A stretch of DNA of 38,024 nt, taken from contig CALFUK010000105.1 in the NCBI GenBank assembly GCA_937929945.1, forward strand, positions 1 to 38,024, read 5' to 3'. The position numbers and the translations under genes are program-made. Under the pieces are notes generated by a model that was not told the origin of the DNA, made no database searches, and saw nothing but the letters and a program-made list of their open reading frames with translations. Positions 2,963 through 38,024 of this stretch are shown here, one piece after another. Origin of the DNA: an uncultured Saprospiraceae bacterium. GTDB taxonomy: Bacteria > Bacteroidota > Bacteroidia > Chitinophagales > Saprospiraceae. Each line of letters opens with the position of its first letter. The first letter of the stretch is position 1.

Positions 2963-3802
2963 CTATTTAGATGCTTTAGGTTTAGAAGTGGTTGCTGATT
3001 TTCTTGGTCTACCTCTTCTGGCTACTGGCTTAGCCGCTGACACTGGCTTCTTAGCTGCAGGTGTCGTTTTGCTTCCTGTAGATTTTGCTGCAGTAGCTGT
3101 CTTGGCTTTTGCTGGTCTACCTCTTTTAGCAGCAGGCTTAGTAGTAGATTTAGCTGTGGTTGACGCGGCTTTGGCTGGTCTACCTTTTTTTGCAGCTGAT
3201 GCAGCCGTAGTTTTAGCTTTGGCTGGTCTACCTCTTTTAGCAGCTGGTTTGGCTACACTTTTAGTAGCTGTCGCTTTTTTCACTGCAGTGGCTTTTTTTG
3301 CAGCTGGCTTAGTTGTAGCCTTTTTAGCGGCTGCGGTCTTAGCTCTTGCTGGTCTGCCTCTCTTTGCTGCTGGCTTAGCAGTGGCTGTTTTGGCAACTGT
3401 AGTTTTAGCTTTTGCAGGCCTACCTCTTTTTGCTGCCGGCTTAGCAGTTGATTTTGCAGTGGCTTTTTTAGTGACCGTTGCTTTTGCTTTTGCAGGTCTG
3501 CCTCTTTTTGATGCTGGCTTGGCGCTTTTCTTAGCTGCTGGCTTTGCTTTTTTAGCAGCAGGTTTTGCTTTCTTAGCTGCTGGCTTAGCTTTCTTAGCAG
3601 CAGGTTTTGCTTTTTTAGCAGCAGATTTTTTCTTAGTGGATGAAGCCTTTTTAGAAGCTTTTTTAACAGAGGGTTTTGCTGATGCTTTTTTCAGAGCAGC
3701 TTCTTTTTTCTTCAATGCCTTCTCTGCATCTTTCACCTTTTTCTTAGCTGCCTTTACAGCTTCTTTCAATTTTTTTATTTCCTTTTTACCGGCCATATTC
3801 AT
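2963..3802 (-). CDS. Histone H1-like protein with seven AT-hooks
   Basis: A 279-aa nucleoid-associated protein made almost only of Ala, Lys, Pro, Thr, Arg and Gly. Residues 5-40 are Lys/Ala/Glu-rich and predicted helical or coiled coil. Residues 62-92 are a tandem KAKPAAK heptad repeat. From residue 99 there are seven AT-hook cores with central GRP at about 101, 127, 149, 191, 207, 228 and 264, mostly in the context AAKRGRPAKAK. AT-hooks bind the minor groove of AT-rich DNA, so a chromatin-compacting or architectural role is likely; Lys/Ala/Pro-rich histone-like tails are known in bacteria and recall eukaryotic H1. Start choice is ambiguous between M1 (3802) and M3 (3796). The repeats invite length variation between strains. 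Confidence 0.85.
   Translation of the reverse strand: MNMAGKKEIKKLKEAVKAAKKKVKDAEKALKKKEAALKKASAKPSVKKASKKASSTKKKSAAKKAKPAAKKAKPAAKKAKPAAKKAKPAAKKSAKPASKRGRPAKAKATVTKKATAKSTAKPAAKRGRPAKAKTTVAKTATAKPAAKRGRPARAKTAAAKKATTKPAAKKATAVKKATATKSVAKPAAKRGRPAKAKTTAASAAKKGRPAKAASTTAKSTTKPAAKRGRPAKAKTATAAKSTGSKTTPAAKKPVSAAKPVARRGRPRKSATTSKPKASK
3527..3619 (-). repeat. 21-bp tandem repeat (KAKPAAK) in H1-like gene
   Basis: About four tandem copies of a 21-bp unit code for the heptad KAKPAAK near residues 62-92 of the H1-like protein. The copies differ mainly at silent positions (for example gca/gct Ala and aaa/aag Lys codons). Such in-frame repeats usually vary in copy number by slippage. Confidence 0.7.
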
Positions 3803-7855: not shown

Positions 7856-7881
7856 CAGGTGGTTTGAATTACGAATTACCC

Positions 7882-7920
7882 TAAAAAAATCAACCTGCAC
7901 CAGACTTTTCTGGCACAGGT
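7882..7920 (-). terminator. Rho-independent terminator after the 1376-aa gene
   Basis: A hairpin at 7893-7920 (ACCTG-ca-CCAGA, loop CTTT, TCTGG-ca-CAGGT) reads on the minus strand into TTGATTTTTTT (7882-7892). It begins 14 bp past the stop of the 1376-aa gene and ends about 27 bp before the ATG of the next gene in the same direction. It therefore either separates the two transcripts or acts as an attenuator between them. Confidence 0.7.
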
Positions 7921-23100: not shown

Positions 23101-26100
23101 TCATCTCCTATTCCGTCACCTCCCGATATACTATTAATTATGATTGAATAAGACCCATTATCCGAACAGACAGATTCTATGTCAGTCATAATCGGTGAGC
23201 ACGGTGTACAATCTTGCTCTTCGATCATGATGGACGTAGACGCCTTACAACCCTGATCGTCAATAACTTCTAATTGATACTCGCCTCCAGTAGTCACGAC
23301 GATGACCGCCGGATCAGCAGTGGTTATGATGATACCACCATCAGATGAGGCCCAGAGGTAGGACGCAAATCCAGAATCCGCCTCCAGCGTCAGTGAGCTT
23401 GGTAGACCTGTACCTGACTCGCAAATAATACCTCCGCCTGAGATAGATACTGACGGAAGCGGATTCATGTTCACATTGATGGTGCCCTCCGCTGTGCACA
23501 CCCCGCCATCGGTATAGCTGTAGGTGAATGGCCCTGTGCTGGGATCTACATCTGTCGGGTCTGTTATATCGCCATCAGCATTAGACCAAGAAAAGATAAA
23601 TGGTAGATTCATCTGCAAAGCGACGAGATTGATACTCGTCACATCCGAACAAATCTCTTGGTCCTCTATGGGCAGCGCTGGCAATACAAAAACATCGACC
23701 ACCGCTGGTCCGAGATTTTGACAGACCTCATCATTATTAGATTCATCGATCACGGCGATCAGTTGGTAGATCGTATTCATGAGCGGTGCCACCATAACTG
23801 AGGCACCACTAAGTACGCTGGTGAGCGTCATTTCTACAGTATTAAAATCTCCATCAGTGTCAATCAAGACTTCATAAGGTCCTTCACCTTCAGCAACATT
23901 AATGGTAAGTTCTACTTGATCACCCAAGCATATTTCATCCGTCGACACTTCTATACTGGCTTGACAGATCGTGCAGTCACAATTTTCTTGAATACTCATC
24001 ACTTCAAAACTATAGCAAAGGTCGCTGTAAGAGGATGCGGGAGTTATACCTGTAGCTTCCGTGATGACAATCGCATTTTGCAGGGCGAGCTGTAGAGATA
24101 AAAGATCACTGTCTAAGACACTAAATGCATAAACATTATAGCTAGATTGATCATCAGGAAGAGAGCTAAATACACCCGTCTGGTTGACAGCGATGATGAC
24201 ATCATTATTATCCACCAGCGCATATAACATACTATACATACTCCCTTCGGCACTGGCCTGCACTGAGATGGCGAAAGGGTCAGGTATGGTACAGTTGCAC
24301 TGAGTACGCTCGCTGCATCGCAGCTGAAGTACCTCGACACTGTATGCGCATCCATTCGCTTCATCGGTGAAGTTGAGCTCGAATTTATCATTTTGATTCG
24401 TGTAGCTGAAGTCCTCTAAAACACCAGTGGCAGGCTGTGAGCTGGCAGAGGTATTCGCCTGCGACTCGACAATGGTGAATGTACTTGCAGAAGCTAACTC
24501 GTACATGACATCAAAGCGATTCCCAATGGATGAGCAGATGGGGAAAGCGACCACTGCAAGCTCTGGACAAACGGAGCAACTCATCGGAGGAGCTATGGTC
24601 ACGGCGCTAAGACAGTCCTGAACATCTGCATCAGTCATCTCAATAGTGATCGGTCCATTCGAAATTAGATACGGCCCATAAGACACAGTACTCCCGTAGG
24701 CCAGTCCGGTATTGCCCTTGTCATCATCGAATGATAAACTCGCCGAAGGAAAATCATTCGTGGCATCCACGGTCAAATCAAAGGTGTAAGTATCATCATT
24801 CGGATCGGCTGGGGTACCCGAATCACTGCACTGGAGATTCTGCGGATCAGACACAGTTATGCTGCAGCTGGCATCAGAACAAGTCACTGGAGCTGATACC
24901 TGAATATCAGCTAAGCAGGCAGGGTCATCCTCATCCATCAAGATGATCGAAGTCGCTCCAGCACTGATCAGGAAGGGACCATAAGTTAAGGTCGTGCCGT
25001 AGCTGATAGCTGTATTCATCATGTCATCGCTGAAGCTTTGGGATGCCATGATATCCGTATTAGAGCCGCTGACAAATACCTCAAAAGAATAGGTATCATC
25101 AGAGGGATCGCCAGGTGTGCCAGCATCTTGACAGCTGGGATCAGCCACTACATCTGCTGTGATCGTACAGAGAGGATTAGAACACAGCTCAGGAATGGAT
25201 ATATCTACTTGGTTAGTGCAGTTAGGGTCGTCTGCGTCTGTGAGCACTAAGGTCACAGTACTGCCAGCAAGCGTACCGATGGGCAGCATAGAGGCAGAAT
25301 AGCCATTCAGACCATAGGTTCCCATCTCATTTGCAGACAGACCGACCGCTGTCCCATCAAAGATAAATCCAGTATTAAAACTATTGGGATCTCCCTGGAT
25401 CAAGGAAAGGCTAAATCCGAAAAAATCATCTCGTGGGTCATCGGGTGTAGCATTATCATCGCATGGGAATACAGTGTGCATGACATTGACAATATCACAA
25501 TTGGGGACCGAACAGGTCGCAGGTATCGACAAGTCCAAAGCAAATTCGCAGCTCGGATCATCCTGATCTACGATTGTCAAGGTGACAGTCGAAGCGCCAA
25601 TGGAATTGATGTTAATCATCGGAGAGCTGTAGTCTAAGCCCGTACCATAGCTCCCTGTCTCTGCACTAAGGAGCCCGATCGCTGTCCCGTCAAACATGAA
25701 TCCTGTGTTGAAATTCACAAGATCTTCTTGCGTGACATCGAGCGTAAAGCTGAAGAAATCGTCAATGGGTGTACTCGTTGTACCATTGTCGCTGCATGAA
25801 CTAATGATCAAATCGACTGCACTGATTTGACACTGTGGACAGCCACAATCTGTAGTCACTTCATAAGGCATAGTATCAGTGTAACAGAAGCCTGCAAAAG
25901 TCGCTGACTGGCTGACCGTAAGCGCATCAGAGATCGAAAGACCGATAAGATCATCCAGTGCTTGCTGCATCGCTGATAGATCTGTGTCGGCGACATTAAA
26001 GGCATAGACAGCGACTTGGCTACCATCACCTGCTAAGCCAGCGAATTCGCCATTTTGATTGATCGCAGTGACGATAGCTTGATCATCAGTCAGCACGTAG

Positions 26101-27182
26101 AGCATGCTGTAATCATCACCATTGGCGGCAGCTTGGCCTGATACTGTCAGAGGCATGTCTGATGTACAATCACAGATCGTCAATGCAGCACAATTCATTT
26201 GTAAGACATCGTATGTGGTCACACAAGACGTCTCATCATTATCTGAGACCGTAAGCGTGATTTTATCGTTTTGGTTAGTATACGAATATGTACCGAATGA
26301 CTGTGGCAGGTTTGCCGCACTAAAGGTCAAGAAGCTCCCTTGAGAATTGACTACGGTATAGACGTCACTGCATTGGTCAGGGTCTCCCCCACTGACAGCA
26401 TCAATCGATATGGTGAAGCTGCCATCAACATTGCAGACTGGATGAGCCTCTACTGTAATCTCAGTGCAGTCAGTACAGCCACAATTTTGACTGAGCATAG
26501 CCATCTCAGACGTATAGCAGTATTGATCAAATGGTGTAGAGGCTGATAAAAGATCATTGATGGAACTCCCCACAAGAGCATTCAGCTCGATAAGAAGATC
26601 TGACAAGTCAATGGAGGCGACATTGACAGCATGGCTCTGGTAAGCAGCAACATCGCTTAGATTTGAGAAAGTCCCAGATTCATTGATCTCTAAGATGATG
26701 CCGAGTGCATCCGTCAGGACATAAACCATATCATAATCATTAGCTTCTCCTGAGGCCTGAGCATTAATATTCAGTGGCCCATCTGCACAGCAGTCACAAG
26801 TGTACAGCGCTGAGCAATGGACTGAAAAGACATCATAGCTCAGCTCACAGGGTGGTACTGAAGCATCGGTGATGGTCAGTGTCACCTTCTGAGCATTCTG
26901 TGTCAAGGCGGTGTCATAGCAAAAGTCTGTTAATAGGACATTACCGCTGATACCAGTCATCAACTGAGTGCCGAGGCAATTATCATAGCTGATGCTGTAT
27001 GGCCCGACGCCCCCTGTGATAGAGGACACATGAATCTCAAAGTCCAGACCTACCGCCACGCAAGTAGCTTCAGCTTCCACCTCGATCAGCGCTGAGTCAT
27101 ATGCATGACCAGCTTTAGCCTTTGCGCAGAAACACACACAAAGCAAAATCAAGACCGATATAAAGCGATTGACGTTCGACAC
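14184..27182 (-). CDS. Giant T9SS type-A secreted repeat protein, 4332 aa
   Basis: One uninterrupted frame of 13 kb. It starts at GTG 27182 (no in-frame ATG before the signal peptide, LILLCVCFCAKAKA). Residues about 25-2000 hold nested Cys-rich repeats: five CDC...CGC modules (about 124, 337, 960, 1424 and 1890), four domains with a DP-DD-Y/F-F core (about 440-870) and a near-exact 465-aa tandem duplication. Then come a lamin-tail-like domain (about 2080-2240), a DUF11-like domain (about 2265-2400) and a second lamin-tail-like domain (about 2450-2600). The module shared with its paralogues starts near 2700, followed by HYR-like repeats with IIDWC/VIDWC (about 3154 and 3632), a CnaB-like and dockerin-like part (about 3925-4050; DINRDGNITAID) and the sorting domain (NDPNPF, about 4253-4332). 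It is probably a long surface adhesin or stalk; function is inferred from architecture. Confidence 0.85.
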   Translation of the reverse strand: MSNVNRFISVLILLCVCFCAKAKAGHAYDSALIEVEAEATCVAVGLDFEIHVSSITGGVGPYSISYDNCLGTQLMTGISGNVLLTDFCYDTALTQNAQKVTLTITDASVPPCELSYDVFSVHCSALYTCDCCADGPLNINAQASGEANDYDMVYVLTDALGIILEINESGTFSNLSDVAAYQSHAVNVASIDLSDLLIELNALVGSSINDLLSASTPFDQYCYTSEMAMLSQNCGCTDCTEITVEAHPVCNVDGSFTISIDAVSGGDPDQCSDVYTVVNSQGSFLTFSAANLPQSFGTYSYTNQNDKITLTVSDNDETSCVTTYDVLQMNCAALTICDCTSDMPLTVSGQAAANGDDYSMLYVLTDDQAIVTAINQNGEFAGLAGDGSQVAVYAFNVADTDLSAMQQALDDLIGLSISDALTVSQSATFAGFCYTDTMPYEVTTDCGCPQCQISAVDLIISSCSDNGTTSTPIDDFFSFTLDVTQEDLVNFNTGFMFDGTAIGLLSAETGSYGTGLDYSSPMININSIGASTVTLTIVDQDDPSCEFALDLSIPATCSVPNCDIVNVMHTVFPCDDNATPDDPRDDFFGFSLSLIQGDPNSFNTGFIFDGTAVGLSANEMGTYGLNGYSASMLPIGTLAGSTVTLVLTDADDPNCTNQVDISIPELCSNPLCTITADVVADPSCQDAGTPGDPSDDTYSFEVFVSGSNTDIMASQSFSDDMMNTAISYGTTLTYGPFLISAGATSIILMDEDDPACLADIQVSAPVTCSDASCSITVSDPQNLQCSDSGTPADPNDDTYTFDLTVDATNDFPSASLSFDDDKGNTGLAYGSTVSYGPYLISNGPITIEMTDADVQDCLSAVTIAPPMSCSVCPELAVVAFPICSSIGNRFDVMYELASASTFTIVESQANTSASSQPATGVLEDFSYTNQNDKFELNFTDEANGCAYSVEVLQLRCSERTQCNCTIPDPFAISVQASAEGSMYSMLYALVDNNDVIIAVNQTGVFSSLPDDQSSYNVYAFSVLDSDLLSLQLALQNAIVITEATGITPASSYSDLCYSFEVMSIQENCDCTICQASIEVSTDEICLGDQVELTINVAEGEGPYEVLIDTDGDFNTVEMTLTSVLSGASVMVAPLMNTIYQLIAVIDESNNDEVCQNLGPAVVDVFVLPALPIEDQEICSDVTSINLVALQMNLPFIFSWSNADGDITDPTDVDPSTGPFTYSYTDGGVCTAEGTINVNMNPLPSVSISGGGIICESGTGLPSSLTLEADSGFASYLWASSDGGIIITTADPAVIVVTTGGEYQLEVIDDQGCKASTSIMIEEQDCTPCSPIMTDIESVCSDNGSYSIIINSISGGDGIGDDYTVEIPGVVQISYPTDVMIPDLVYDGSDGVQSAITLLIIDENASACQVTTYVFELNCADQEVCDCSQQNPYSINVQATADANQSSMMYVLVDQDAGGQIVAPPNQTGSFGSLADNINYVVYAFTIDLNDFSTFSALVGILREIKAGDAILTQTSSFMDVCYDWQLVELFEDCSCEPCRAELMVSVPEICFGDSIDLIINIDEGSGPYTVMIDSDGDASTAEITLTSVVNGAMVTVTPNSNSSYQIISVEDESNNEFCNSSGFVQTLVSILPNLPIEDQAVCADVSRVDLTDLEMDFPSFSFTWSDAAGVIMDPTDVDPSTGPFTYSYTDGGVCTAEGLVNYTINPLPTVSITGDSEICQQGTGSPSTLELEVDAGFSSYSWTTANGATIMGDTDGPTVSISSAGEYAVTVVDENGCIASASKVITELDCTSCSPIEAVAAAECSGDGSYSVIISSVTGGDGQLGGYSITINGSITIEYPTVTEINGLAYIGSDSKQGKVEIIIEDMDAPQCFTSLSVFEVDCREQESCDCTADQPYSIQVQASGSADDYELLYVLVDQDNAGTIIGIPNQHGGFASLPDNTNYTVYAFTVASTDLDSFLSEVNALSAISETDPLLLQQAPFDDYCYDISSVDLIEDCGCDPVELCQLGIRSIMADCNPEQAGLYEIELCLDTSNGNDSQFNVMIDGQQIGEFEYADLDADGCLMLTATELNLIADGSEGIELTVLDGPLSAASEEIYISELHYDNAGPDENEMVEITASAGTDLMGYELHLYNGSSGSTYGMPIALSGQVTDPDCGALVFEIDGLQNGPDGIALVSASGTVLDFISYEGSFLANAGPAQGLTSIDIMVTEGDATTSSQSLMLTDDGWQVSATASFGRVNEGLSCQQDMMLLCGDTAVYDEPRCIFDIALTKELSPSSIAPFNTGDAVSFDITIFNQGNVDAGEIVVSDYFDPMALSYQSISSAMLQTQLDNAVAVTDLGSGAFSLSSLALGDQVTVTIYFLIHPAFTEDIIINNAEITRATNAFNLPDIDSQPGDDAGSAPDLVNDDDPTVGNDDFDPVVINLCAGELSPPVVDELLTVCSGDIINVLIEAGKSEKPVKAASLFFSEYLEGSSRNKCLEIYNGTGDAVDLTDWSIQIYNNGNSTAAATFFPDGVVINDDDVLVICNSASDSVMLDLSDVLLNAATNFNGNDDIVLVDPEGAFIDVIGTIGSALDFGTNQSFVRNCEISEGRADGSRLFIPTDEWEIQEVDDVTDLGMHSYCATGLFPDECSYQIYLQHPATGSDPVLSGVQNDFNIDELDVALSFPQTLFITCISPTGCESNPSEISLVVQEDQALACNDRVQISLGDSCRYRVTPDLLLEADTDLSFFDVTLTREGGSVLDSAVITKTLEGETLQYQLTDLCTGNSCWGELAVEIKLRPILSSPCEFVLGTRQDIEADFSLGSRLEFQTIIESDCQDIIIDYETELKYNCGVGGPVDWCVADVTIIVSLNGEVVVSRANISSNMQIIIPGANPGDYSIVIEGNQETVTGEFNLSLQTTDCAPAQDCELQCGINESVRGGFFRDAIASNGFMSLSEAQSTLRSSCFQEVTELTSRITVDEDFCGAGTRSIISYIGTIVNHAGDSEKINLITQAYVERPAQISDIQSPLHVALPCGASTHPDSIFAYLNQANNALSDSIAISQSYPYFILKNADGDTLKRNASIEVPVTVHYQHRVDTVKVERLIDGESLLVELINKELRDSIRFDRVRQSVTRLNPIPIAEQYCGYIVDYEDIVVPACGSGVKVLRSWSIIDWCDQQFRTLPMQQIENNDDEGPAFSPLLDQDISIQTTDCSAIFELPAVVVHDDCSSTDRISLQWQTSEGRIEDGFVLDLWEDNSPVLLTLTAVDECDNRTVDSMYLHISDQIAPVASCVDELQVSITEGDLAVVHADAFDAGSHDFGCGEVWLKVIREADLRGTEVGFWNTKGPRRSPDYDLQPDPSFAYRYSCGNEEADDFRATYFDENRKVLGVDIGRQVFFDDQTSFCCADVDQTEVMVVVRVFDRDPGAGAVDPRRMVQELASPTLIPDRRNKNRLSQSTNFVENDLYGHYTDCWVKVILANKIEPEITCEDITISCTDDIKAVEIPESSGGICEAASIRLASETELSAGCSISSVVRKWYIDADDDGVFSEGEVTCTQTITISTENQLLDPFTIKWPKHFDGSTRMGKNIECDSLTVVEESADIAMGESFSCVAIDSDSQVLWCDPACSLVAYTVAIDTIQAAESCMSIIKRHSVIDWCLWTPNASEAEADQFEAVEDWAQGACTFCGVDTLTAGGAERVYFRYTEVSEDGYYEFDQILKIIDDTDPQIVVQDTFFVSSSVTQDKQEDAACDISGMIHAMAMDFCGDGNLRDAYVNWQVSVSEGDRLISSSTSFSDTIIIMSGEGSAGDSYQVEWIASDACGNQVREESIIIFEDDTKPVPVCIQGVSTASISEEEQAEIWASDFDLGSYDNCGVAHFSITGRDAEPIRPEEEGFAEQQNISLSCVDLGLVSELDVWVWDSYGNGARCPVSILLSGSCDTIPADGRTAFTIAGQIVTTTAQPLENVEVTLNADLDEYPLKAQTGETGAYSFLNNPYLQDYELVAYKDNDHLSGVTTADLVRLRSHILNIDRLASPYHLLAADINRDGNITAIDMVILTKLILGNIPNFPDNDSWRFVPADYEFADPGSPWDAPESIQIERLNRAMTKQDFIGVKVGNLTNDILVDLASTATSRNQKSVLLSTVDRRVEAGEIITLAISSTEESIAAVHTTLQHSGLELLHVATTEGSVEYQKSGETTELIWMGKPSAERKSNEVLTLKYKALESGLVSDMLSIANTDSVDDAPPSIAYLIESLAPAAVALVYEEVTQRTADILHNDPNPFKDETVIKFYLTTTQDVKLTVYDVSGTVMLNQFATGIAGHNQMAIDLTDLAGTGVLLFHVKSKELSETGKMIRLK
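21165..21525 (-). repeat. CDC...CGC module, copy 5
   Basis: Starts SCDCTADQPY, with core YELLYVLVDQD, NQHGGFASL, VYAFTV, CYDIS, ending DCGCDPVELC. It is the last copy before the lamin-tail-like part. Confidence 0.75.
21165..22590 (-). repeat. Super-repeat copy B (about 465 aa) in the giant gene
   Basis: Second copy of a roughly 1.4-kb tandem unit. It runs from CRAELMVSVPEICFGD through DPSTGPFTYSYTDGG and GEYAVTVVDENGC to the fifth CDC...CGC module. It parallels copy A domain by domain in the same order. The protein stays nearly identical in places while DNA differs at many third codon positions. Confidence 0.8.
22572..22920 (-). repeat. CDC...CGC module, copy 4
   Basis: Starts VCDCSQQNPY, with core SSMMYVLVDQD, NQTGSFGSL, VYAFTI, CYDWQ, ending DCSCEPC. 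It closes super-repeat copy A. Confidence 0.75.
22572..23985 (-). repeat. Super-repeat copy A (about 465 aa) in the giant gene
   Basis: First copy of the tandem unit. It runs from CQASIEVSTDEICLGD through DPSTGPFTYSYTDGG and GEYQLEVIDDQGC to the fourth CDC...CGC module. It is directly adjacent to copy B with no spacer. Confidence 0.8.
23964..24306 (-). repeat. CDC...CGC module, copy 3
   Basis: Starts QCNCTIPDPF, with core YSMLYALVDN, NQTGVFSSL, VYAFSV, CYSFE, ending NCDCTIC. This copy leads into super-repeat copy A. Confidence 0.75.
24590..25800 (-). repeat. Four tandem DP-DD-F/Y domains in the giant gene
   Basis: Four consecutive domains of about 80-100 aa (roughly 25510-25800, 25205-25470, 24895-25140 and 24590-24830). 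Each opens with Cys-x-Asp and a DDFFxF or DDTYxF strand and ends with a DxDDPxC-like turn and SxPxxCS. Copies 1 and 2 share FNTGFxFDGTAxGL; copies 3 and 4 share YGxTxxYGPxLIS. This looks like duplication of an already duplicated pair. Confidence 0.75.
25831..26178 (-). repeat. CDC...CGC module, copy 2
   Basis: Starts ICDCTSDMPL, with core YSMLYVLTDD, then NQNGEFAGL, VYAFNV, CYTD, ending DCGCPQC. Spacing matches copy 1. Confidence 0.75.
26466..26810 (-). repeat. CDC...CGC module, copy 1
   Basis: A module of about 115 aa. It begins with a Cys pair (TCDCC), continues with a YDMVYVLTD core, FSNL and a CYTSE element, and ends NCGCTDC. The same plan recurs four more times in this protein. Confidence 0.75.
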
Positions 27183-27205: not shown

Positions 27206-28261
27206 TTAATTGCCGTTAGCTGGAAATTTTATGATTTTGGCATCGCAGCTTACTACAGGACAATCTGGGATTGCCACGGAGACTGCTTGGCCTAAGCAGC
27301 TAGCATCAACTGCATCTATGACATTGACATTTATAGAAGTGGCAGTCGTAGGACCTGTCATCGTCACATCAAAACAGATAGTACCATCTGCCTGAGCAGT
27401 CAAAGAAGAAATGATCGCATTAGCATTATCGACATCGATCAAATTATAATCTCCAGATCCGCCACTGACATCTGCGCAGACGGTGTAGCTAGCATCAGAG
27501 GCAGTACAGGCACCATCAGCAGTCACTGTGACATTCGTGATGGAGCAAATTGGTGCAACAGGAGAGCAGCCCGTATTGGTATTTGGAGCTGGTGCGTTGT
27601 CGGAGTAGACGGCGATATTGTCGATGGCGATGTCTTCATCTGCTGCTAACAGATTATTGATCGATATATTGATATCCAGTGTATTTCCTGTAATCGATAG
27701 AGGCGCACAGAAGGTGGTGAATACATCTGTAAGTAATACACCATCAGCGAGTCCATCAACATCACAATCAAATCCTGGTGTCGAGTTCACTGAGGTTGCC
27801 GACGATTCAATTACAAATAACAATTGTCCTGTTGCACCATCTACCACAGCACCTAAACTAAATGAAGAATCTCCATCCCAATCTTCATTTCCGTCAGCAG
27901 CCGTATCCTCAGCGACATCAAAACAAATGACGATACCAGCTTGACCTGAAATATCTATACCCCCTATAGAAGCATTTACATTAGCGCCTTGAGTCAGACT
28001 ACAATTTGATGCTCCGCTACCAGTGTCCTGCGCTCCCAGAAAATTACCTGTAGCGCCATTATAATTTACTGAAGAGGCTATAGTCAGATTAGTAATTCCA
28101 AAATAATCAGCAGCATCACCAACTCCACAGATCATATCTATAGTCGTCGTGGCAGTCGTATTAGAGCCATCAAAATCCTCAATAAAAATTTGGGCTTGCA
28201 GGGGCTCGTAAAAATAAAATATGAATAAAGCTGTGGCGATGAGGGTAAAGGTCTTTCTCAT
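27206..28261 (-). CDS. Secreted 351-aa protein lacking a sorting domain
   Basis: Start placed at ATG 28261 (a TTG three codons upstream is less likely). A signal peptide (MRKTFTLIATALF...LQAQ, about residues 1-24) precedes a beta-rich domain starting IFIEDFDG with Cys-linked and Asp-rich segments (NEDWDGDSSFSLG, DIAIDNIAVYSD). This resembles the jelly-roll or concanavalin-like N-terminal domains of Bacteroidota surface proteins. One Ig-like repeat follows (about 240-335, CSITNVTVTADGAC) of the style seen in the giant protein. It ends CDAKIIKFPANGN with no T9SS domain and lies 23 bp upstream of the giant gene's GTG, so the two are probably cotranscribed. It may be a periplasmic or released partner, or an ancestor shortened by loss of its C-terminus. 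Function unknown. Confidence 0.75.
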   Translation of the reverse strand: MRKTFTLIATALFIFYFYEPLQAQIFIEDFDGSNTTATTTIDMICGVGDAADYFGITNLTIASSVNYNGATGNFLGAQDTGSGASNCSLTQGANVNASIGGIDISGQAGIVICFDVAEDTAADGNEDWDGDSSFSLGAVVDGATGQLLFVIESSATSVNSTPGFDCDVDGLADGVLLTDVFTTFCAPLSITGNTLDINISINNLLAADEDIAIDNIAVYSDNAPAPNTNTGCSPVAPICSITNVTVTADGACTASDASYTVCADVSGGSGDYNLIDVDNANAIISSLTAQADGTICFDVTMTGPTTATSINVNVIDAVDASCLGQAVSVAIPDCPVVSCDAKIIKFPANGN

Positions 28262-28286
28262 ATCAATCAATAGTTTTCGTTATGTC

Positions 28287-28313
28287 GACACTGCTCCTGC
28301 ATAGAACAGTGTC
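28287..28313. promoter_or_regulatory. Inverted repeat upstream of the 351-aa gene
   Basis: A perfect 7-bp inverted repeat, GACACTG / CAGTGTC, with a 13-nt loop ends 26 bp upstream of the ATG at 28261. It may be an operator or leader hairpin for the 351-aa/4332-aa gene pair. Assigned from symmetry and position only. Confidence 0.35.
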
Positions 28314-28579
28314 ATTCTAAACTACAATAATGAGATGTAAATATTTATTTTTTCAGATATGAACTTCTTGGCTTTTGATTTAGATTTAATATCTATATCA
28401 TTATTATAAATAAACAGCACTCTTTCTGATATATACATATTACACAAATACCATATAGTATATTTAGGAGAACTGATACCTGTATAGCATGCAGAACATA
28501 CTGCCTTAGATAAGTATCTTCTGCCCGTCACTTTCTGATAGTTTATGTCTAATTACAAGTACCTCCTAATAATCAAAAT

Positions 28580-28608
28580 AGGCCAATCATTAATAAACCG
28601 ACTGGCCT
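28580..28608 (-). terminator. Terminator-like hairpin of the fadJ fragment
   Basis: AGGCCA (28580-28585) pairs with TGGCCT (28603-28608). It occupies the same place relative to the stop codon as the hairpin behind the intact fadJ, but the stem is shorter and the flanking A-run on the plus strand is weaker. Confidence 0.5.
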
Positions 28609-28873
28609 TCTATTATTGTCAGAAAAATTAGTACGAAGCTATGCGGAAGCTGCTCCCATTTCACCTTTAACTTCGTAATCATAGATCGACTTACCAGCTG
28701 CAGCCAGATCTCGTAATGACTGTGGCACTGTCCATCTCGGACCATACTTATCCTTAAACGCATCACAGTCTGCGACGAACTGATCCATACTTATAATATG
28801 GATATAAGACAATGCCCCACCTGCATAGATTTAAGTTTCCCCAGCCAGTCATAAAACCAATGTCGACATCCGC
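28580..28873 (-). pseudogene. fadJ 3'-end fragment with its terminator
   Basis: This segment matches the last roughly 75 codons, stop codon and terminator of the intact fadJ-like gene at 33507-33800, in the same orientation, 4927 bp away. In the 227-nt ungapped part (28604-28830) I count about 21 mismatches, near 91% identity. The translated tail (DQFVADCDAFKDKYGPRW, then LRDLAAAGKSIYDYEVKG) is conserved with many silent changes. After 28830 a net 1-nt insertion shifts the frame and homology stops near 28873. There is no start codon or upstream remainder. It is best explained as the stump of a diverged fadJ homologue left by recombination or insertion. Confidence 0.85.
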
Positions 28874-28956
28874 ATGCTCACTACAGAAACACACTTTTTT
28901 TTTTCAATAAGGGTAAGAAATTAATTATGTGCTGAATATAGAGCTAAACATTATCT

Positions 28957-31900
28957 ATGAAAAAATCAGCCGTCATCATTACATTTATCTTCTCGCAATT
29001 AATTCTGCTAACTGGTCAAACAGATACAACTGATTCCCATTGTTTTCCATTTTTAGATATGATAGGTGACACTATTCCAACTGGAAGCTATCGTTCTGCT
29101 GCGTACATTAGATCAAATGGCATCATCATTGAGTCTGAAAACGTAGAATTAGTAGCGCCTAATTCCATTTCACTTGAGCCTGGATTTGCGGTAGAAAGTG
29201 GAGCACAATTGACCATTGCACTTGACGGTTGCGAACCCGATCCTGCTCCGTACCCACCATTAGTATTAGTTTCTAATTCTGGAGATCCATACAGCCCACC
29301 TCGCCCCAATAATGAGAACCAACGAGTCATGAATCATTGTGAGGTATGCGGTCACTTTTTATTGGAATTCTTTGACAATAATGTAGGATTTGATGATTCT
29401 GATTTGGTTCTGGCAGAACAAAGAAGAACAGTGGCCTGTGATGTCTTTAAAGATATTTCTGCATTAGTCGTCAATCCTAACCTCCCACCAGGAACCGTTA
29501 GAATAGAAATCATGCCTTCTTTTATTGATGATAGCGGTGGCTCTCTTGCAGTGGCAGAAGTATGGCACGCCTTAGGATTCAATGACGGCATAGATGACAG
29601 CGGAGTCTGGCGAACCATCATGACAGGAAGAAATGCATGGGAGCATTTAGATGTTATTGGTGCCACTGCATGGCCTCATGGAAGACTTTCTGTCAACTTT
29701 GATTCTGCCAGACCATATGTATATAATGACTCGGTGAGGAATCTCTGTGTGAATGCTGGTGAAAGAGATTTTTACTCTATCGTACTTCATGAAGCAATGC
29801 ACTTATTGGGAGTCTATTCACTATTAGATGGTGGGCATCCTAACCGTCTCAGTCACCTGACAGATTTAACCTTGAGTCGATTTCAGCATGTTTATTCCCG
29901 ATTTGATCAGCATGTTTTCTCGTCTGGCTTACCCATAATCTCCTACAACTCTCCATTTGTTTTGGGCCCTAATATGTCTGCCCCATTACTCTTTGATTGT
30001 CCTGTTCCTAACAATATATTTTTCAATGGCAGCACTACAGCTAATCAATCCATATTTACAGGAAAAGAAAGTGGTATGTGGTGGGATAGTAATTTAAGCC
30101 ATCTGAACTGTATAGAAGATGATACATACACGACTAACCCAACCATTTCTCCGGGCACAGTCCAACGCATCCCCCACCCCAATGAAGTGACCATACTTCA
30201 GGACCTTGGCTACAGTATAAGTGGAACTTACGGCACCATGAATTGTCCAGCCGACCCAGAGTGTAATCCTTCAACCAATTGCAATACTCAAGATCACGTG
30301 CCTTTTGGTAGTTATACTGTTAATCAAAGTCATGATCTATGCCACATCGGAGTGAATGATCAGTATACTGGATTAGAATCAGGAATTCCATTTACGATTA
30401 ATGCGACTGGTACAACTGGCTACTTAGACAATGATATCTTCCCATTTGGTCCAAGCACCCAAATTACTGTACAGACTAATCCAGATGCAGGAATTGCTGT
30501 TTTACTTCCTAATGGTGATATTGAATTTACGCCAAATCCAACATTTTTTGGAACCACATATTTGCTTTATGTAGTAGAGTGTCCTCAGTCTCAGCAAGGT
30601 AACATTACCTATATCATTTTGGATGTAGATCCACCTCAATTGGCATTATGTGATGCCGGTGCTTCGACTTGTGAAAATATATTGTGTTGGGGTGACTTTG
30701 AAGATTTTATACCAGGACAATTCTATGCTCAAACGCCATACAATAGTTTTGGAACTGAGTGTTTAGGTGCAAGCCGGTCTGTTGATATATGTCATGATAT
30801 GGTTAATAATAATAACTATGCGAATGTGAATACTGCAATTGATGAGATCATATTGTTACCATTAAGCTCTCCCCTTTTACCTGGTTGTACTGCGACAATT
30901 GATTTCTCAATGGGATTCAATAGATTCAATGTTGATGAAACTAATCCTATACCTGGGGTAGTCCATATGTGGATGAGTGAAGATTCACCTTGTGAAGTTA
31001 ACCGTAACGACCTTGGATGGGTATGCAATGCATCCGGCCAAATAACGCAGACTCCAAGTCTAAATGGAATATATACAACAACATGCTCTAATCCAACTAG
31101 GATTTTCGAAGTTGTAAATATTCATCGAGATGATACTTACTTGGGTTCGCCAAATCCTAGAGGCGTATGCATTCATGATCTACAAATGGACTCATATTCG
31201 GTGACTTGGCAGAACAATACAGGTAAAACCTTAAATCAATTTTACATAACAGGTTCACCTACAGGTGGAGGCTTTGCAAAATTTGATGACATCACAATTA
31301 CATCCAGTTGTCTGGCTAACGAAGTCACGATTACTGCTAATCCTGATCCAATCGAACTATGTGGGACTAATGATGGCTCTATCGCATTCACTCTATGCAG
31401 CGCTCCTTCTTCTACTACAATAACAGCTATTGACTATGAAGCTGTGGCTACTATCCCTGCACTACGCAGCATCAATATTAATAATCCTATTGGCAGTGTT
31501 TTAATAGCACCAGGTAGCTGCCAGACGATCTCCTTCACTTTCAATTCTGATCTTCAACCAGGCGATGCAGCGTCCATAGAACTACATACAACCAGTAACA
31601 ATAGTTGTGTATCAGGAAATTCTAATGCATCAGTCGACATTAACTTATTGCATCAGATTGATATCCAAGCCAATCCAATAAACATGCGAATTTGCCCTGG
31701 AGAAATATCTACCATTGATTACACCATATGTAATAACGGGCCACAGATTGCGAGTTTTGATTATAGATCTTTGAACCTTCTCAGTCCTTCAAATTTTATT
31801 CAGATCATTCCGAATGCATTCTTTAATTCATTTGGTCAAAGTGCTACTCCCATGATACTCACACCAGGAGCTTGTACAACGATACAATTAGAATTCACTG

Positions 31901-33345
31901 CTTCTATCAATCCTGGGGAGCAGGTGATTATTGTCTTTAACATTGACGAAGCTCAGACTTGTACTTCAGGAGGACCTAATACTTGGACCACAGTGACTCC
32001 AGCTGAAAATGTAACAGTCACAACAACACCGGCTATTTTAAATCTCTGTAATGGTCAAACTTCAGATATTTCGTACACAGTATGTAATACAACAAGTGCT
32101 ATTACACTTCCCATTCCATATACCATCACCGTACCAATGGGTATCAATTGTACTAACTGTACAGGTACAATACCTAATTTAACAATTGGTACTTGTGAGA
32201 CTATCACCATTACAGTAGAATCGAACTTGCTACCAAATACTGGTGGCTGGGCAGAATTAGAACTGGGCGGCAGCTTGTACTGTCTCACTGGGAACAATAG
32301 AGCAGCAATACTCACTCCGCAAGAACTCATTATCAACCCATTACGTCCAAGCTTGGACATCTGTCCCGGCTTCACTGATCAGATCGAATATGAAATAATC
32401 AATAACAACAATGCTACTATTAGCTTTGATTATGCATTGTGGGCTCTCGGTCCAGATCAGAATGTCGTAATGAATCCAGCTGCAGGAACGATTACGGCCG
32501 CTCCTGGACGTACTGTATTAACAGTAGATATTACAAATAACAATCCTCTTGGTTCTATTGTCACCATTCGTCTTGTACCAGTTGACTTAAATCATTGCAT
32601 TGCGTTTGGCTCTAATCTAAATGTCGTCGTCAACACCCCGCAGAACTGCTTTTTCCTGGACGGTCAAGTCTTTCTGGGTGGTGTCCGAAAAGATTTTGAT
32701 CCTTCCTTTTGTGAGCTCATGATGTTTAAAGATGTAGCCATTCCAAATCAAAGCCCTTATACTGCTTTAGGATATGCGAGCACTACCTGCTTTACAGATG
32801 ATTTCTATCCTTGGGCCACTCTTTCAGTGGAGGTCATTGATTGGGTATTTGTAGAATTGAGGGACCTAATCAATCCAAACATGGTGATATGTTCCAAGGA
32901 TGCTTTATTATTAAATGACGGTCGAATATTTGACCCTCAAAGCCCTCAAGGTGTATTCTTGCCATTGTCATTTCATGATGTTCCGCCTGGAGATTATTTC
33001 GTTGTAGTCAGGCATCGAAACCACTTAGATGTTATGAGCGACGCCCCAATTAATTTTAGTCTAAATACTGTTTCAACAATTAATTTTTCAAATGGTAGTC
33101 AGGCAGCTGGATTTCAGAATGTCGCAGCATACAACAGCTTATGTAATCAAATCACTTTATGGTCACTTTATGCTGGCGATGTCAATGATGATGGCGTTAT
33201 CAATGCATCCGATCGTTCTTCGATCTATAATGCATTGGGTGATACGGGATATATAATTAACGACATTGTAGCAGAAGGAATAGTTGACCAGCTTGATCAA
33301 GATCGGGCATGGGATAATCGAAATAAAGTGAGCAATGTACCTTAA
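28957..33345 (+). CDS. Secreted zinc metallopeptidase-like modular protein, 1462 aa
   Basis: A signal peptide (MKKSAVIITFIFSQLILLTG) is followed by a 3-coathanger-stack-like domain (about residues 45-90, SISLEPGFAVESGAQLTIAL). A peptidase-like region (about 110-430) contains H278-E-A-M-H282-L-L-G, a possible third zinc ligand H382 in SNLSHL, and a closing ILQDLGY, as in many Bacteroidota secreted metallopeptidases. Next come Ig/cadherin-like domains, a Cys-containing domain near 570-785, and four tandem DUF11-like repeats (about 790-1230). A module with WVFVELRD and VVRHRNHLDVM (about 1290-1370) leads to a dockerin-like end (DVNDDGVINASD to WDNRNKVSNVP). No canonical T9SS domain is visible; this ending looks natural rather than truncated. 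The gene is more AT-rich than its neighbours and stands between two fadJ tails. Protease activity is inferred. Confidence 0.8.
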   Translation: MKKSAVIITFIFSQLILLTGQTDTTDSHCFPFLDMIGDTIPTGSYRSAAYIRSNGIIIESENVELVAPNSISLEPGFAVESGAQLTIALDGCEPDPAPYPPLVLVSNSGDPYSPPRPNNENQRVMNHCEVCGHFLLEFFDNNVGFDDSDLVLAEQRRTVACDVFKDISALVVNPNLPPGTVRIEIMPSFIDDSGGSLAVAEVWHALGFNDGIDDSGVWRTIMTGRNAWEHLDVIGATAWPHGRLSVNFDSARPYVYNDSVRNLCVNAGERDFYSIVLHEAMHLLGVYSLLDGGHPNRLSHLTDLTLSRFQHVYSRFDQHVFSSGLPIISYNSPFVLGPNMSAPLLFDCPVPNNIFFNGSTTANQSIFTGKESGMWWDSNLSHLNCIEDDTYTTNPTISPGTVQRIPHPNEVTILQDLGYSISGTYGTMNCPADPECNPSTNCNTQDHVPFGSYTVNQSHDLCHIGVNDQYTGLESGIPFTINATGTTGYLDNDIFPFGPSTQITVQTNPDAGIAVLLPNGDIEFTPNPTFFGTTYLLYVVECPQSQQGNITYIILDVDPPQLALCDAGASTCENILCWGDFEDFIPGQFYAQTPYNSFGTECLGASRSVDICHDMVNNNNYANVNTAIDEIILLPLSSPLLPGCTATIDFSMGFNRFNVDETNPIPGVVHMWMSEDSPCEVNRNDLGWVCNASGQITQTPSLNGIYTTTCSNPTRIFEVVNIHRDDTYLGSPNPRGVCIHDLQMDSYSVTWQNNTGKTLNQFYITGSPTGGGFAKFDDITITSSCLANEVTITANPDPIELCGTNDGSIAFTLCSAPSSTTITAIDYEAVATIPALRSININNPIGSVLIAPGSCQTISFTFNSDLQPGDAASIELHTTSNNSCVSGNSNASVDINLLHQIDIQANPINMRICPGEISTIDYTICNNGPQIASFDYRSLNLLSPSNFIQIIPNAFFNSFGQSATPMILTPGACTTIQLEFTASINPGEQVIIVFNIDEAQTCTSGGPNTWTTVTPAENVTVTTTPAILNLCNGQTSDISYTVCNTTSAITLPIPYTITVPMGINCTNCTGTIPNLTIGTCETITITVESNLLPNTGGWAELELGGSLYCLTGNNRAAILTPQELIINPLRPSLDICPGFTDQIEYEIINNNNATISFDYALWALGPDQNVVMNPAAGTITAAPGRTVLTVDITNNNPLGSIVTIRLVPVDLNHCIAFGSNLNVVVNTPQNCFFLDGQVFLGGVRKDFDPSFCELMMFKDVAIPNQSPYTALGYASTTCFTDDFYPWATLSVEVIDWVFVELRDLINPNMVICSKDALLLNDGRIFDPQSPQGVFLPLSFHDVPPGDYFVVVRHRNHLDVMSDAPINFSLNTVSTINFSNGSQAAGFQNVAAYNSLCNQITLWSLYAGDVNDDGVINASDRSSIYNALGDTGYIINDIVAEGIVDQLDQDRAWDNRNKVSNVP

Positions 33346-33388
33346 ATCACAAACCTCTTTAGAGTTTCTATAGTTTCGAAAATTGGAG

Positions 33389-33420
33389 AGCAGAAGAATA
33401 ATTTCTTCTGCTTTTCCTTT
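33389..33420 (+). terminator. Terminator of the metallopeptidase gene
   Basis: A perfect 10-bp stem, AGCAGAAGAA / TTCTTCTGCT, with a TAAT loop is followed by TTTCCTTT on the plus strand. It lies 43 bp after the stop codon of the 1462-aa gene. Classic Rho-independent form. Confidence 0.85.
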
Positions 33421-33502
33421 TGTCGGACTTTACTAATAAATCCATCTATCACACCTTAAAAACTTAATCAAAGATCAATTAGATCACATACTCAAGTCAA
33501 CA

Positions 33503-33535
33503 CAAAAAGGCCAGACATTTCACAATGCCTGGCCT
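33503..33535 (-). terminator. Terminator of the thiolase-fadJ operon
   Basis: AGGCCAG (33508-33514) pairs with CTGGCCT (33529-33535), with a CAT/ATG inner extension after one mismatch. On the minus strand it reads into TTTTTGTG. It lies 30 bp past the fadJ stop. With the preceding plus-strand hairpin it insulates the convergent genes. Confidence 0.8.
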
Positions 33536-33565
33536 TCTATTATTGTCAGAAAAATTAGTACATAG

Positions 33566-35740
33566 CTATGCGGAAGCTGCTGCCATTTTACCTTTGACTT
33601 CATAATCATGGATCGACTTACCAGCTGCAGCCAGATCTCGCAGTGACTGAGGCACTGTCCATCTCGGTCCATACTTCTCCTTAAACGCATCACAGTCTGC
33701 AACGAACTGATCCATGCCTACAAAATCGATATACGATAATGCTCCACCTGCATAGATCGGGAATCCCCAACCCGTCACTGAGCCAATGTCGCCATCAACA
33801 ACAGAGTGCAAGACACCTTCATCAAGACATCTGAACGCCTCCAATGACTGCCTGTGCAGTAAGCGCTTAGCGACAGTCTCCTTATCCATCGTCTCTACAT
33901 CACTCTTAAAAATCTCTTCTAATTTTGGCCAGATTCTCTTTTTACCATTTTCTGGATAATCGTAGAATCCTGCTCCTTCTTTCTTACCCTTACGCCCATG
34001 CTCTTCGACCAGCATCTTAGTGATCTTAAAGTTACGCATCATAGATGCATCTTTCTCCAGATCAGGATTGCTCTCCATGACATGCAGACCTAATGTCAAT
34101 GATACCTCATCAGATACAGCTAATGGACCTACAGGCATACCTTTAGTCTTTGCAATATTCTCGATCATCACTGGTGGTACGCCTTCATCCAATAAGAATA
34201 ATCCCTCAGATGTATAAGTTCCAAAACATCTAGAGGTGTAAAATCCTCTGGAGTCATTCACGACGATGGGTATCTTTCTGATCGCCATGACATAGTCCAC
34301 GGCAGCAGCAATCGCCTTATCTTCTGTCTTCTCTCCGACGATGATTTCTACCAGTGGCATTTTATCTACTGGAGAAAAGAAGTGTATTCCAATGAAATTC
34401 TCTGGTCGCTCAGAAGCCTTAGCTAAGAGCGTGATCGGGATCGTGGAGGTGTTAGACGCATATATCTTATCCGCAGCGAGGACAGCCTCTGTTTGCTTAG
34501 TCACTGTCGCTTTCAAGTCTGGATTTTCGAAGACCGCCTCGATCACCATATCGCAGCCTTCCATATCAGCAGGATCAGCTGTGGTATGGATTCTGGATAA
34601 GAGCGCATCCGCAGCTTCTTGCGTCATTCTGCCTCTACCCACTCTCTTCTTCACTAATGCCTCTGAGTAAGCCTTGCCTTTATCAGCTCCTTCTTTTGTG
34701 ACGTCTTTCAGCACCACATCCATACCCGCATACGCTGATACGTAGGCGATACCCGCTCCCATCATGCCTGCACCGAGGATGCCCAGTTTTTTGATTTCAT
34801 ACTTTGGCTCGTCTTTCGGTCTGGCGACACCTTTTTTAGCAGCCGTGATGCCTAAGAAGCCTGTCCTGATCATATTACGCGCTTCCTTAGAGGTAATGGT
34901 ATCCGTGAAGTAGCGAGCCTCTATCTCCAGCGCTCTGTCGATAGGTACTTGGAGACCTTTGTACACCACACTCATGATATTAGTCGCTGCTGGATAGTTG
35001 CCGTGGGTCAGCTTTCTGAGATTTCCGATTCCCCCCATGATCACTTGCGCACCTGTGGGTGACATGACGCCACCGCCAGGTATTCTGTATTTCTTATTAT
35101 CCCAAGGTTGCACTGGTGACTGATTTTCAGCAATCCATTTTTTAGCAGCTGGGATGAGATCTTCTGGCTTCTCTACCACTTCGTTGATCAGCTTAGATTT
35201 CAGTGCCTTCTCTGGTGAGTGCTCAGTCCCTTGTAGTAATGCCATGAGTCCATTCTGCAGCCCCATTAGATATGGTATCTTGATGGTCCCACCACCACCA
35301 GGCAGCAGGCCTACTTTTACTTCAGGACATCCTATTTTTATCTTGGGATTATTCACACTGATTCTGTGATGACAGAGTAAGGCGAGCTCCAGACCACCGC
35401 CTAAAGTGTGTCCATTGAGACAAGCTACGAATGGCTTTCCTGATTTCTCTATTTCTCTGAATGACTTATGCATTTGTAAAGCATTATTCAGAAATTCTTC
35501 TTTATCCGTGATGGGCTTTTCCAGTTGCTTCAGGTCAGCTCCTGCCATGAACATGGACTTAGCTGACTGAATGATGATGCCCTTCACCGAGTCGTTATTG
35601 ATCAGCTCATTCGCCGCTTCAATGAAGGAACTGATGAAGTCGAAACTGAATAAATTTGTGGATTCTGACTTATTATCCATGGTGATGACTGCTACATCAC
35701 CATCCATTTCATAAGTCAATATATTTTTATCAATTGCCAT
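33566..35740 (-). CDS. fadJ: FadJ-type enoyl-CoA hydratase / 3-hydroxyacyl-CoA dehydrogenase
   Basis: Bifunctional beta-oxidation enzyme that hydrates 2-enoyl-CoA and oxidises the resulting 3-hydroxyacyl-CoA with NAD, in the cytoplasm. The crotonase domain (about residues 1-200) carries the two expected catalytic glutamates, E118 in GGGLELALLCHHR and E140 in GCPEVKVGLLPGGGGT. The dehydrogenase part has the Rossmann motif LGILGAGMMGAGIAY (about 317-332) and the active-site region FIGIHFFSPVDKMPLVEII (about 450-470). The C-terminal 3HCDH domains run to residue 724, matching the roughly 715-730 aa of FadJ/FadB. The ATG at 35740 is 36 bp after the thiolase stop, so they form an operon. A diverged copy of its last 75 codons lies at 28580-28873. 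Confidence 0.95.
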   Translation of the reverse strand: MAIDKNILTYEMDGDVAVITMDNKSESTNLFSFDFISSFIEAANELINNDSVKGIIIQSAKSMFMAGADLKQLEKPITDKEEFLNNALQMHKSFREIEKSGKPFVACLNGHTLGGGLELALLCHHRISVNNPKIKIGCPEVKVGLLPGGGGTIKIPYLMGLQNGLMALLQGTEHSPEKALKSKLINEVVEKPEDLIPAAKKWIAENQSPVQPWDNKKYRIPGGGVMSPTGAQVIMGGIGNLRKLTHGNYPAATNIMSVVYKGLQVPIDRALEIEARYFTDTITSKEARNMIRTGFLGITAAKKGVARPKDEPKYEIKKLGILGAGMMGAGIAYVSAYAGMDVVLKDVTKEGADKGKAYSEALVKKRVGRGRMTQEAADALLSRIHTTADPADMEGCDMVIEAVFENPDLKATVTKQTEAVLAADKIYASNTSTIPITLLAKASERPENFIGIHFFSPVDKMPLVEIIVGEKTEDKAIAAAVDYVMAIRKIPIVVNDSRGFYTSRCFGTYTSEGLFLLDEGVPPVMIENIAKTKGMPVGPLAVSDEVSLTLGLHVMESNPDLEKDASMMRNFKITKMLVEEHGRKGKKEGAGFYDYPENGKKRIWPKLEEIFKSDVETMDKETVAKRLLHRQSLEAFRCLDEGVLHSVVDGDIGSVTGWGFPIYAGGALSYIDFVGMDQFVADCDAFKEKYGPRWTVPQSLRDLAAAGKSIHDYEVKGKMAAASA

Positions 35741-35776: not shown

Positions 35777-36982
35777 TTATACTCTTTCGATAATAGTCGC
35801 GATACCCATGCCACCGCCTATGCACAGTGTCACAAGGCCTGTCTTCTTATCTTGTCTCTCTAACTCGTCAATGAGCGTACCCATGAGAATACATCCTGTC
35901 GCTCCCAGTGGATGACCCAAGGCTATAGCTCCACCATTCACATTGATCTTATCCATTGGAATGTTAAGGTTATCTCTCATCAGCATCGGTACCACAGCGA
36001 ATGCTTCATTGATCTCATACAGGTCAATATCAGAGGCTTGCATACCCGCCTGCTTCAGCGCTTTCTCACTGGCTGGCGTCGGGCCAGTCAGCATGATCGT
36101 GGGATCAGTCCCGTATACTGCCATGGCTAAGACCTTGGCTCTTGGCTTTAGTCCTAAAGCCTTACCTGCTTCTCCATTCCCCACTAAGGCAATAGCAGCT
36201 CCATCGACTATAGCAGAAGAGTTACCTGCGTGATGCACATGATTGATTTCAGCTAATTCTGGGTATCTATCGATGGCCACCGCATCAAATCCTCCCATCT
36301 CGCCCATCATGGCGAATGAAGGCTGCAGTCCTGATAGAGCCTCTACAGTGGTGCTGGCTCTTACATTTTCATCGTGTGCCAAGACTGTGATACCATTCAC
36401 GTCTTTCACTGGTATTCTTGATTTGAATAGCTCTGCCTTTTCTGCAGCTACCGCCTTCATCTGAGAATGGTAGGCGAATTCATCTACATCTTGTCGAGAA
36501 TAGCCATATTTAGTCGCAATTAAATCTGCGGATATCCCTTGTGGAATTGTATGCCCGGGCATGGCCACTGCTGGGTCCATCATCATCGCTCCACCATCTG
36601 AGCCCATCTTCACTCGACTCATACTCTCTACTCCACCTGCGATCAGTAGCTGAGAGAATCCTGATTTGACATAGGCAGAAGCCTGATTAATCGCTTCTAA
36701 GCCTGAACCGCAAAATCGATTCAGCGTCACTCCACAGAGATGATCTCCATAGCCAGACTGCTGAGCTGCCGTCTTCGCAATATTCGCGCCTTGGTCCATC
36801 ACCTGTGATACGCAGCCGAGGATGACATCTTCCACCATTTCTGTCTTTAGGTCATGTTTTTCTCTAAGTTCAGTCAGACACTGTGTCGCAAGCTGCGTCG
36901 GAGTAATCCCGATGAGCGCTCCCTTCTTATTTCCTCTCCCCCGTGCTGTTCTGATAGCATCATAGATATAAGCTTCTGCCAT
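35777..36982 (-). CDS. Acetyl-CoA C-acyltransferase (thiolase)
   Basis: Thiolase catalysing the last beta-oxidation step, CoA-dependent cleavage of 3-ketoacyl-CoA. In 401 aa the three catalytic signatures are present: nucleophile Cys91 in [15 protein letters not shown], His357 in [15 protein letters not shown], and Cys387 in CIGGGMGIA. Length fits FadA/FadI-type degradative thiolases (about 390-435 aa). It is the first gene of the operon with fadJ and is read divergently from a TetR regulator 164 bp away. A FadA/FadI name is not assigned because chain-length class cannot be told from sequence alone; a biosynthetic acetoacetyl-CoA thiolase is less likely next to fadJ. Confidence 0.93.
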
Positions 36983-37878: not shown

Positions 37879-37904
37879 ATAATAAAATATAGGAGTCTCA
37901 GTAT

Positions 37905-38024
37905 TTGACCACCTATCTGACCACCTATCTGACCACCTATCTGACCACCTATTTGACCACCTATTTGACCACCTATGTGACCACCTATCTGACCACCTAT
38001 CTGACCACCTATCTGACCACCTAT
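37905..38024. repeat. 12-bp minisatellite, ten units, running off the window
   Basis: Ten head-to-tail copies of NTGACCACCTAT with no gap. Only the first base varies; in order the units begin T, C, C, C, T, T, G, C, C, C. The other eleven positions are identical in all units. A partial TAT precedes the first copy, and the array continues past the window end. The period is a multiple of three: plus-strand translation would be (LTTY)n, but a TAG lies 15 bp upstream and no ATG is seen. The minus strand would read (IGGQ)n. Confidence 0.9.

Follow-up and report, generated by a model that had tools for sequence, protein, structure and literature searches.

The stretch of DNA analyzed here (the window; 38,024 nt) is one contig (C105) of a 211-contig draft genome of 5.07 Mb from an uncultured Saprospiraceae bacterium, with an estimated contamination of 0.04. 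The locus under study consists of a complete fadJ-type gene with a 401-aa gene on one side and, on the other, a metalloprotease-like gene on the opposite strand, beyond which a second, broken fadJ 3′ end is found (Table 1). The fadJ product is matched over its full length, with scores of 540 bits against a cut-off of 869 and 475.5 against 968.45 (PRK11154 / TIGR02440). As the match is full-length and the equivalog cut-offs are missed, we call the gene fadJ-type and not FadJ proper. The adjoining 401-aa gene, which from its position we take to be a fadA-like thiolase, keeps its order with fadJ and a TetR gene in two congeneric genomes (G001 and G002).

Table 1. Features at the fadJ locus, with positions counted from the first nucleotide of the window.
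Feature	Position	Strand	Remarks
354-aa predicted secreted protein, beyond the fadJ remnant	27206..28270	-	Neighbor of the fadJ fragment
Orphan fadJ 3′ end, decayed, with degenerate terminator-like hairpin	28574..28897	-	Robust core 28602-28830
1462-aa probable secreted metalloprotease-like protein gene	28957..33345	+	Domain, motif and profile matches
Terminator-like hairpin 3′ of the 1462-aa gene	33385..33425	+	-19.5 kcal/mol; 0/200 shuffles as good
Matching end of intact fadJ, with terminator-like hairpin	33503..33819	-	Core 33529-33757
Intact fadJ-type multifunctional fatty-acid oxidation gene, 724 aa	33566..35740	-	NCBIfam FadJ/FadB best, under equivalog cut-offs
401-aa gene adjoining fadJ	35777..36982	-	Order conserved in G001 and G002

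The core of the duplicated fadJ end is a direct repeat of 229 nt, in which the two copies are 91% identical with a spacing of 4927 nt. It continues at 79% identity (28838–28870 and 33764–33796), and gapped local alignment widens the homology to the full extents given in Table 1, with 82% identity over 328 columns when gaps are counted. The longest identical run between the copies is about 33 bases. Searched against its whole own assembly, the fragment matched itself and the fadJ end alone (E = 1.5e-90, far beyond chance), and no third copy of the tail was found in this draft. The fragment comes without the remainder of fadJ and carries a one-base indel near codons 660–661. In the fadJ frame, traced backward from the stop codon, codons 662–724 are open and the sequence upstream of codon 662 is closed. 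A terminator-like hairpin can be folded in either copy, at −23.9 kcal/mol in the intact one and −15.1 kcal/mol in the fragment; the loop is strongly diverged between the copies, yet the stem pairs in both. A first-pass annotation of this DNA had described a fadJ end duplicated together with its terminator, in direct orientation around a metallopeptidase gene, with one copy broken, and this description is borne out. Its figure of about 91% identity applies to the core and is too high for the repeat as a whole.

The gene between the repeat copies is present once in the genome, where no second full copy was found, and its product is probably a metalloprotease-like protein. A 3-coathanger stack domain (NF045639) covers residues 46–93 (32.7 bits, cut-off 26), and residues 257–419 match the metalloprotease profile NF038122 at 21.7 bits, below the cut-off of 80; an Ig-like match is also sub-threshold. 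The sequence HEAMH at residue 278 corresponds to the HExxH zinc-binding motif typical of zinc metalloproteases, and among 18 aligned relatives HExxH is kept in all 18 and LHExxH in 17. The retention of this motif together with the profile matches makes “metallopeptidase” a fair name, with the function being predicted. Pfam offers no family for the catalytic stretch at E values up to 1, and a single-sequence AlphaFold2 model of the catalytic region (mean pLDDT 31.6) was set aside. A type IX sorting domain was not detected in the protein, so its predicted secretion is read from the N-terminus and the domains. The catalytic region is matched in 16 of 298 genomes of the order, our genome included, and the other matches are 26–40% identical. 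The C-terminal part of about 200 residues (window 32700–33345) is a shared module: it is matched by 14 proteins of another genome (G007) at 31–43% identity and also elsewhere in the order.

The ancestry of the fragment was examined in a maximum likelihood tree of 74 codons and 18 sequences, in which the fragment and the local fadJ were joined by 16 further fadJ genes. The comparison covers codons 649–659 and 662–724; codons 646–648 were dropped for unclear alignment and 660–661 for the indel, and G001, whose tail is missing, was left out along with more distant fadJ relatives. The fragment and the local fadJ grouped apart from the 16 others with a support of 99, and the fragment is thus the sister of its own genome's fadJ end. 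The branch leading to the fragment has a length of 0.124, that leading to the intact copy 0.0057. All ten replacing changes that could be polarized fell on the fragment branch (codons 650, 654, 655, 672–675, 688, 711, and 718); the replacing change at codon 720 could not be polarized. All 16 outgroups have G650, S654, D672, V674, and G675, and the intact residue is kept by 11 of them at V655 and at F673, by 15 at H711, by five at E688 and by one at K718, so that eight of the ten changes hit residues kept by at least 11 of the 16 outgroups. The residue of the fragment is seen in one outgroup at codon 711 and in none at the other nine codons. Silent changes are harder to polarize because third positions are near saturation relative to G002 (30–50% identical in windows of 60 codons). 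Placed by eye from shared states, five to seven lie on the fragment and three codons changed on the intact copy, with the silent changes at codons 653 and 669 left unplaced. A sliding comparison with G002 gave no sign of a hybrid fadJ, though here too third positions are near saturation.

To place the locus among its relatives we compared the genes behind fadJ. The congeneric G002 has a single fadJ end followed by a CHAT-domain gene and a subtilase gene, which are oriented as the 1462-aa gene is here. G002 (L059) is thereby a relative with the arrangement that the first-pass annotation had proposed to look for, one fadJ end and no metallopeptidase gene. It contains three matches to the 1462-aa protein, all outside the catalytic part (14 of 58 first-look candidates scored). 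Between the N-terminus of its subtilase and that of the 1462-aa protein there is a weak match (30%, E = 0.001), and this N-terminal module has further weak matches elsewhere in these genomes. The block 28850–33540 has no DNA match in G001, G002 or G007. In G001 (C146, L063) the contig breaks off at fadJ codon 665, in the part of the gene that occurs twice here, and a repeat in that genome could be the cause of the break. In four loci of distant relatives tested out of 18 listed (L048, L050, L051, and L056) the next gene is a CoA-transferase. Relatives of the 354-aa gene and of a 4332-aa gene next to it are on the same contig as fadJ in G002 and on another contig in G001. An amidohydrolase is found there in G001 and G002, and its relative in our genome lies on another contig. 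In G002 some 10 kb and several other genes separate the relative of the 354-aa gene from fadJ, so that neither tail can be assigned to the ancestral place. The gene content behind fadJ thus differs between genomes and the slot appears to be fluid. The state just before the duplication was seen in none of the genomes examined.

A second fadJ tail was found in none of the 10 relatives with at least 5 kb behind fadJ. This check drew on 44 locus records. Several came from the same genome, and in most the sequence behind fadJ was no longer than 1.5 kb, where a tail 4.9 kb away could not show. Five records gave second hits, of which one is our fragment and four lie inside the fadJ/3-hydroxyacyl-CoA dehydrogenase gene itself. 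A DNA search of 40 genomes gave two hits outside our own (G012 and G024), both the ends of their own fadJ; at genus distance this search is insensitive, and it missed G002's own fadJ end.

Taken together, we consider that the fragment arose long ago as a duplicate of the local fadJ 3′ end, is non-functional, and was orphaned when the protease gene was placed beside fadJ, and we give this reading a probability of about 0.6. A rearrangement or a one-sided homologous integration would have set the 1462-aa gene beside fadJ and thereby made the second tail. The event that we favor is an integration anchored by fadJ homology at one end with an illegitimate join at the other; a variant would be a circle with a fadJ end that integrated by a single crossover. 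After either event the new gene would have a complete fadJ on one side and an orphan tail on the other, and this tail would then have drifted and decayed. The fragment would have no product of its own and may serve at most as a weak terminator and as upstream sequence for the protease gene. Excision of the block through the direct repeats is possible.

The anchored integration is ranked first because the left flank (28271–28610) and the block (28850–33540) match only themselves in the genome. A tandem duplication of the fadJ end and its downstream region, with one copy of that region later lost or replaced, would need no imported DNA and would make the fragment the sister of the local fadJ, as observed. 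Losses or replacements evidently occur behind fadJ, since the slot differs between our genome and G002. After a tandem duplication the downstream region should nevertheless be present twice unless one copy was lost, and neither the left flank nor the block has a second copy. The scars expected from such a duplication with later loss, or from the single crossover of a circle, would be similar. We hold the tandem origin to be rather unlikely and the foremost of the alternatives.

Events of the favored kind are known. Homology-facilitated illegitimate recombination, in which one end of the incoming DNA is homologous and the other is joined illegitimately, is on record for three naturally competent species and, at low frequency, for Escherichia coli (PMC3240628). 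Such an event would leave the layout seen here. In our case it would be read from an old scar, with the event, its donor and its frequency unobserved; the layout as such fits a homologous anchor at one end and a non-homologous junction at the other, with no empty site from the same species to set beside it. At type VI effector loci of Vibrio and at Rhs loci, orphan genes and gene ends are attributed to sequential displacement, for which recombination of this type has been proposed (PMC5361080). Those loci resemble ours in that new genes appear at a conserved anchor and displaced parts are kept downstream. They differ in that the anchor here is a housekeeping gene and the displaced end is the decayed tail of a metabolic gene, and no toxin–immunity array is present at fadJ. 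Ordinary partial duplications and pseudogene remnants are also comparable: they are sisters of the local gene and have lost constraint, as has the fragment, which clusters with the local fadJ and carries ten of ten polarized replacing changes as well as an indel. The fadJ remnant differs from them in flanking an unrelated gene, which implies that an insertion or rearrangement accompanied the duplication. We therefore regard the locus as an ordinary old rearrangement scar, a new example of a familiar kind and not a new system. What it offers is a record, with a relative age, of the way in which a secreted-enzyme gene came to lie next to a housekeeping gene.

The pattern of silent and replacing changes bears on whether the fragment was once functional. 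Over the 74 codons the copies differ at 26 nucleotides, 14.5 of them silent and 11.5 replacing; for codons 678–724, the 47 codons counted in the first-pass annotation, its count of seven silent against four replacing is exact. If both copies had drifted freely, the observed differences would be too silent (P = 0.0007–0.0094), but fadJ itself is under constraint, which makes this null the wrong one. When one copy is constrained and the other drifts, a silent excess is expected, and the intact copy's own silent changes contribute to it. A model of this kind, in which the intact copy is constrained while the fragment drifts freely, predicts 53–61% replacing changes against 44–46% seen and is not rejected (P = 0.10–0.33; codons 678–724 alone, P = 0.09–0.22). 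Two equally constrained copies are rejected (P < 0.01, at an assumed dN/dS of 0.1). Taken by itself, the fragment branch is compatible with neutrality when its ten replacing changes are set against five to seven silent ones (P = 0.08–0.49); with nine silent ones neutrality becomes doubtful (P = 0.018–0.084). The contrast in replacing and silent changes between the fragment and intact branches is not significant by itself (P = 0.07–0.21). Hence a silent excess between two copies is not a sign that both were functional. Part of the fragment branch may have been under constraint for a time, though nothing requires it.

These results also bear on the proposal that the metalloprotease gene arrived together with a foreign, formerly functional fadJ end. 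The excess of silent differences over the prediction for two freely drifting copies would fit such an origin, as would the patchy occurrence of the catalytic region among the 298 genomes. The first-pass annotation had adopted the former argument; it compared the copies without assigning changes to branches, and its reading of the excess as a functional past is not supported. With the changes polarized, all the replacing ones are found on the fragment. Over the 74 codons the fragment shares 88% identity with the local copy and no more than 66% with any of the 16 others, and its GC3 (0.37) is close to that of the local copy (0.38). That annotation had named strict sisterhood with the local fadJ and a neutral substitution pattern as what would speak against a functional past, and the tree gives the former, while the changes come close to the latter. 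A foreign origin is therefore improbable, with a very close relative, within about 10% divergence, as a possible donor.

The silent divergence between the two fadJ ends is about 0.31. The duplication is thus old, in agreement with the earlier statement that it is not a fresh tandem duplication, and it is younger than the split from G002. Divergence is uneven along the fragment, at 20% for codons 649–675, the side nearer the protease gene, and 7.5% for codons 676–724 (P = 0.008, post hoc), a pattern not expected under a single neutral clock. Recombination between the repeats that homogenized the middle, or gene conversion of the 3′ half, is a possible cause.

That our genome and G002 carry different protease genes in the same orientation behind fadJ, a metalloprotease-like one here and a subtilase with a CHAT-domain gene in G002, could suggest that blocks of secreted-protease genes are repeatedly exchanged in the genus at the 3′ end of fadJ as an anchor, the repeated fadJ tail allowing them to be swapped or excised by ordinary recombination. 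We find this very doubtful.

An assembly artefact, in which two strains of one population were joined at a shared fadJ end, might be suspected as the draft is split into 211 contigs, of which the window is one, and both congeneric relatives are titled metagenome-assembled genomes. It is highly improbable, as the fragment, with its indel and its changes at conserved residues, is unlike a working strain allele, the longest identical run is short for a false join and the estimated contamination is 0.04. Site-specific elements inserting into gene 3′ ends restore the end on one side and leave the displaced tail on the other, which is the layout here, but such an element is the least credible origin, as the sole long gene between the repeats has no recombinase domain that we could find, no transposase or integrase family was found by Pfam in 11 window proteins (fadJ and the 401-aa gene excluded), the homology extends over some 320 bp in place of a short identical core, and a second tail was seen in 0 of the 10 relatives with sufficient flanks; a mobile element with its own recombinase was accordingly rejected.

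The 354-aa protein encoded beyond the fadJ remnant has a C-terminal third that matches larger proteins of G001 (59%) and G002 (45%), in which its N-terminal part is unmatched. Beside it, a 4332-aa protein (14184–27182) carries lamin-tail, DUF11, dockerin and type IX sorting domains. In G001 and G002, too, relatives of the 354-aa gene have large genes beside them, and the large gene of G002 matches the 4332-aa protein at up to 45%. Two adjacent large paralogs (3911–7900 and 7935–12065) are 28.7% identical over nearly their whole length, and both carry a type IX secretion C-terminal sorting domain. A 279-aa protein with AT-hook matches is encoded at 2963–3802 by a gene with several short tandem repeats. 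At the opposite end, a 12-bp tandem array (37902–38024; 10.2 copies, 96% matches) reaches the contig end, and the assembly probably breaks within it.
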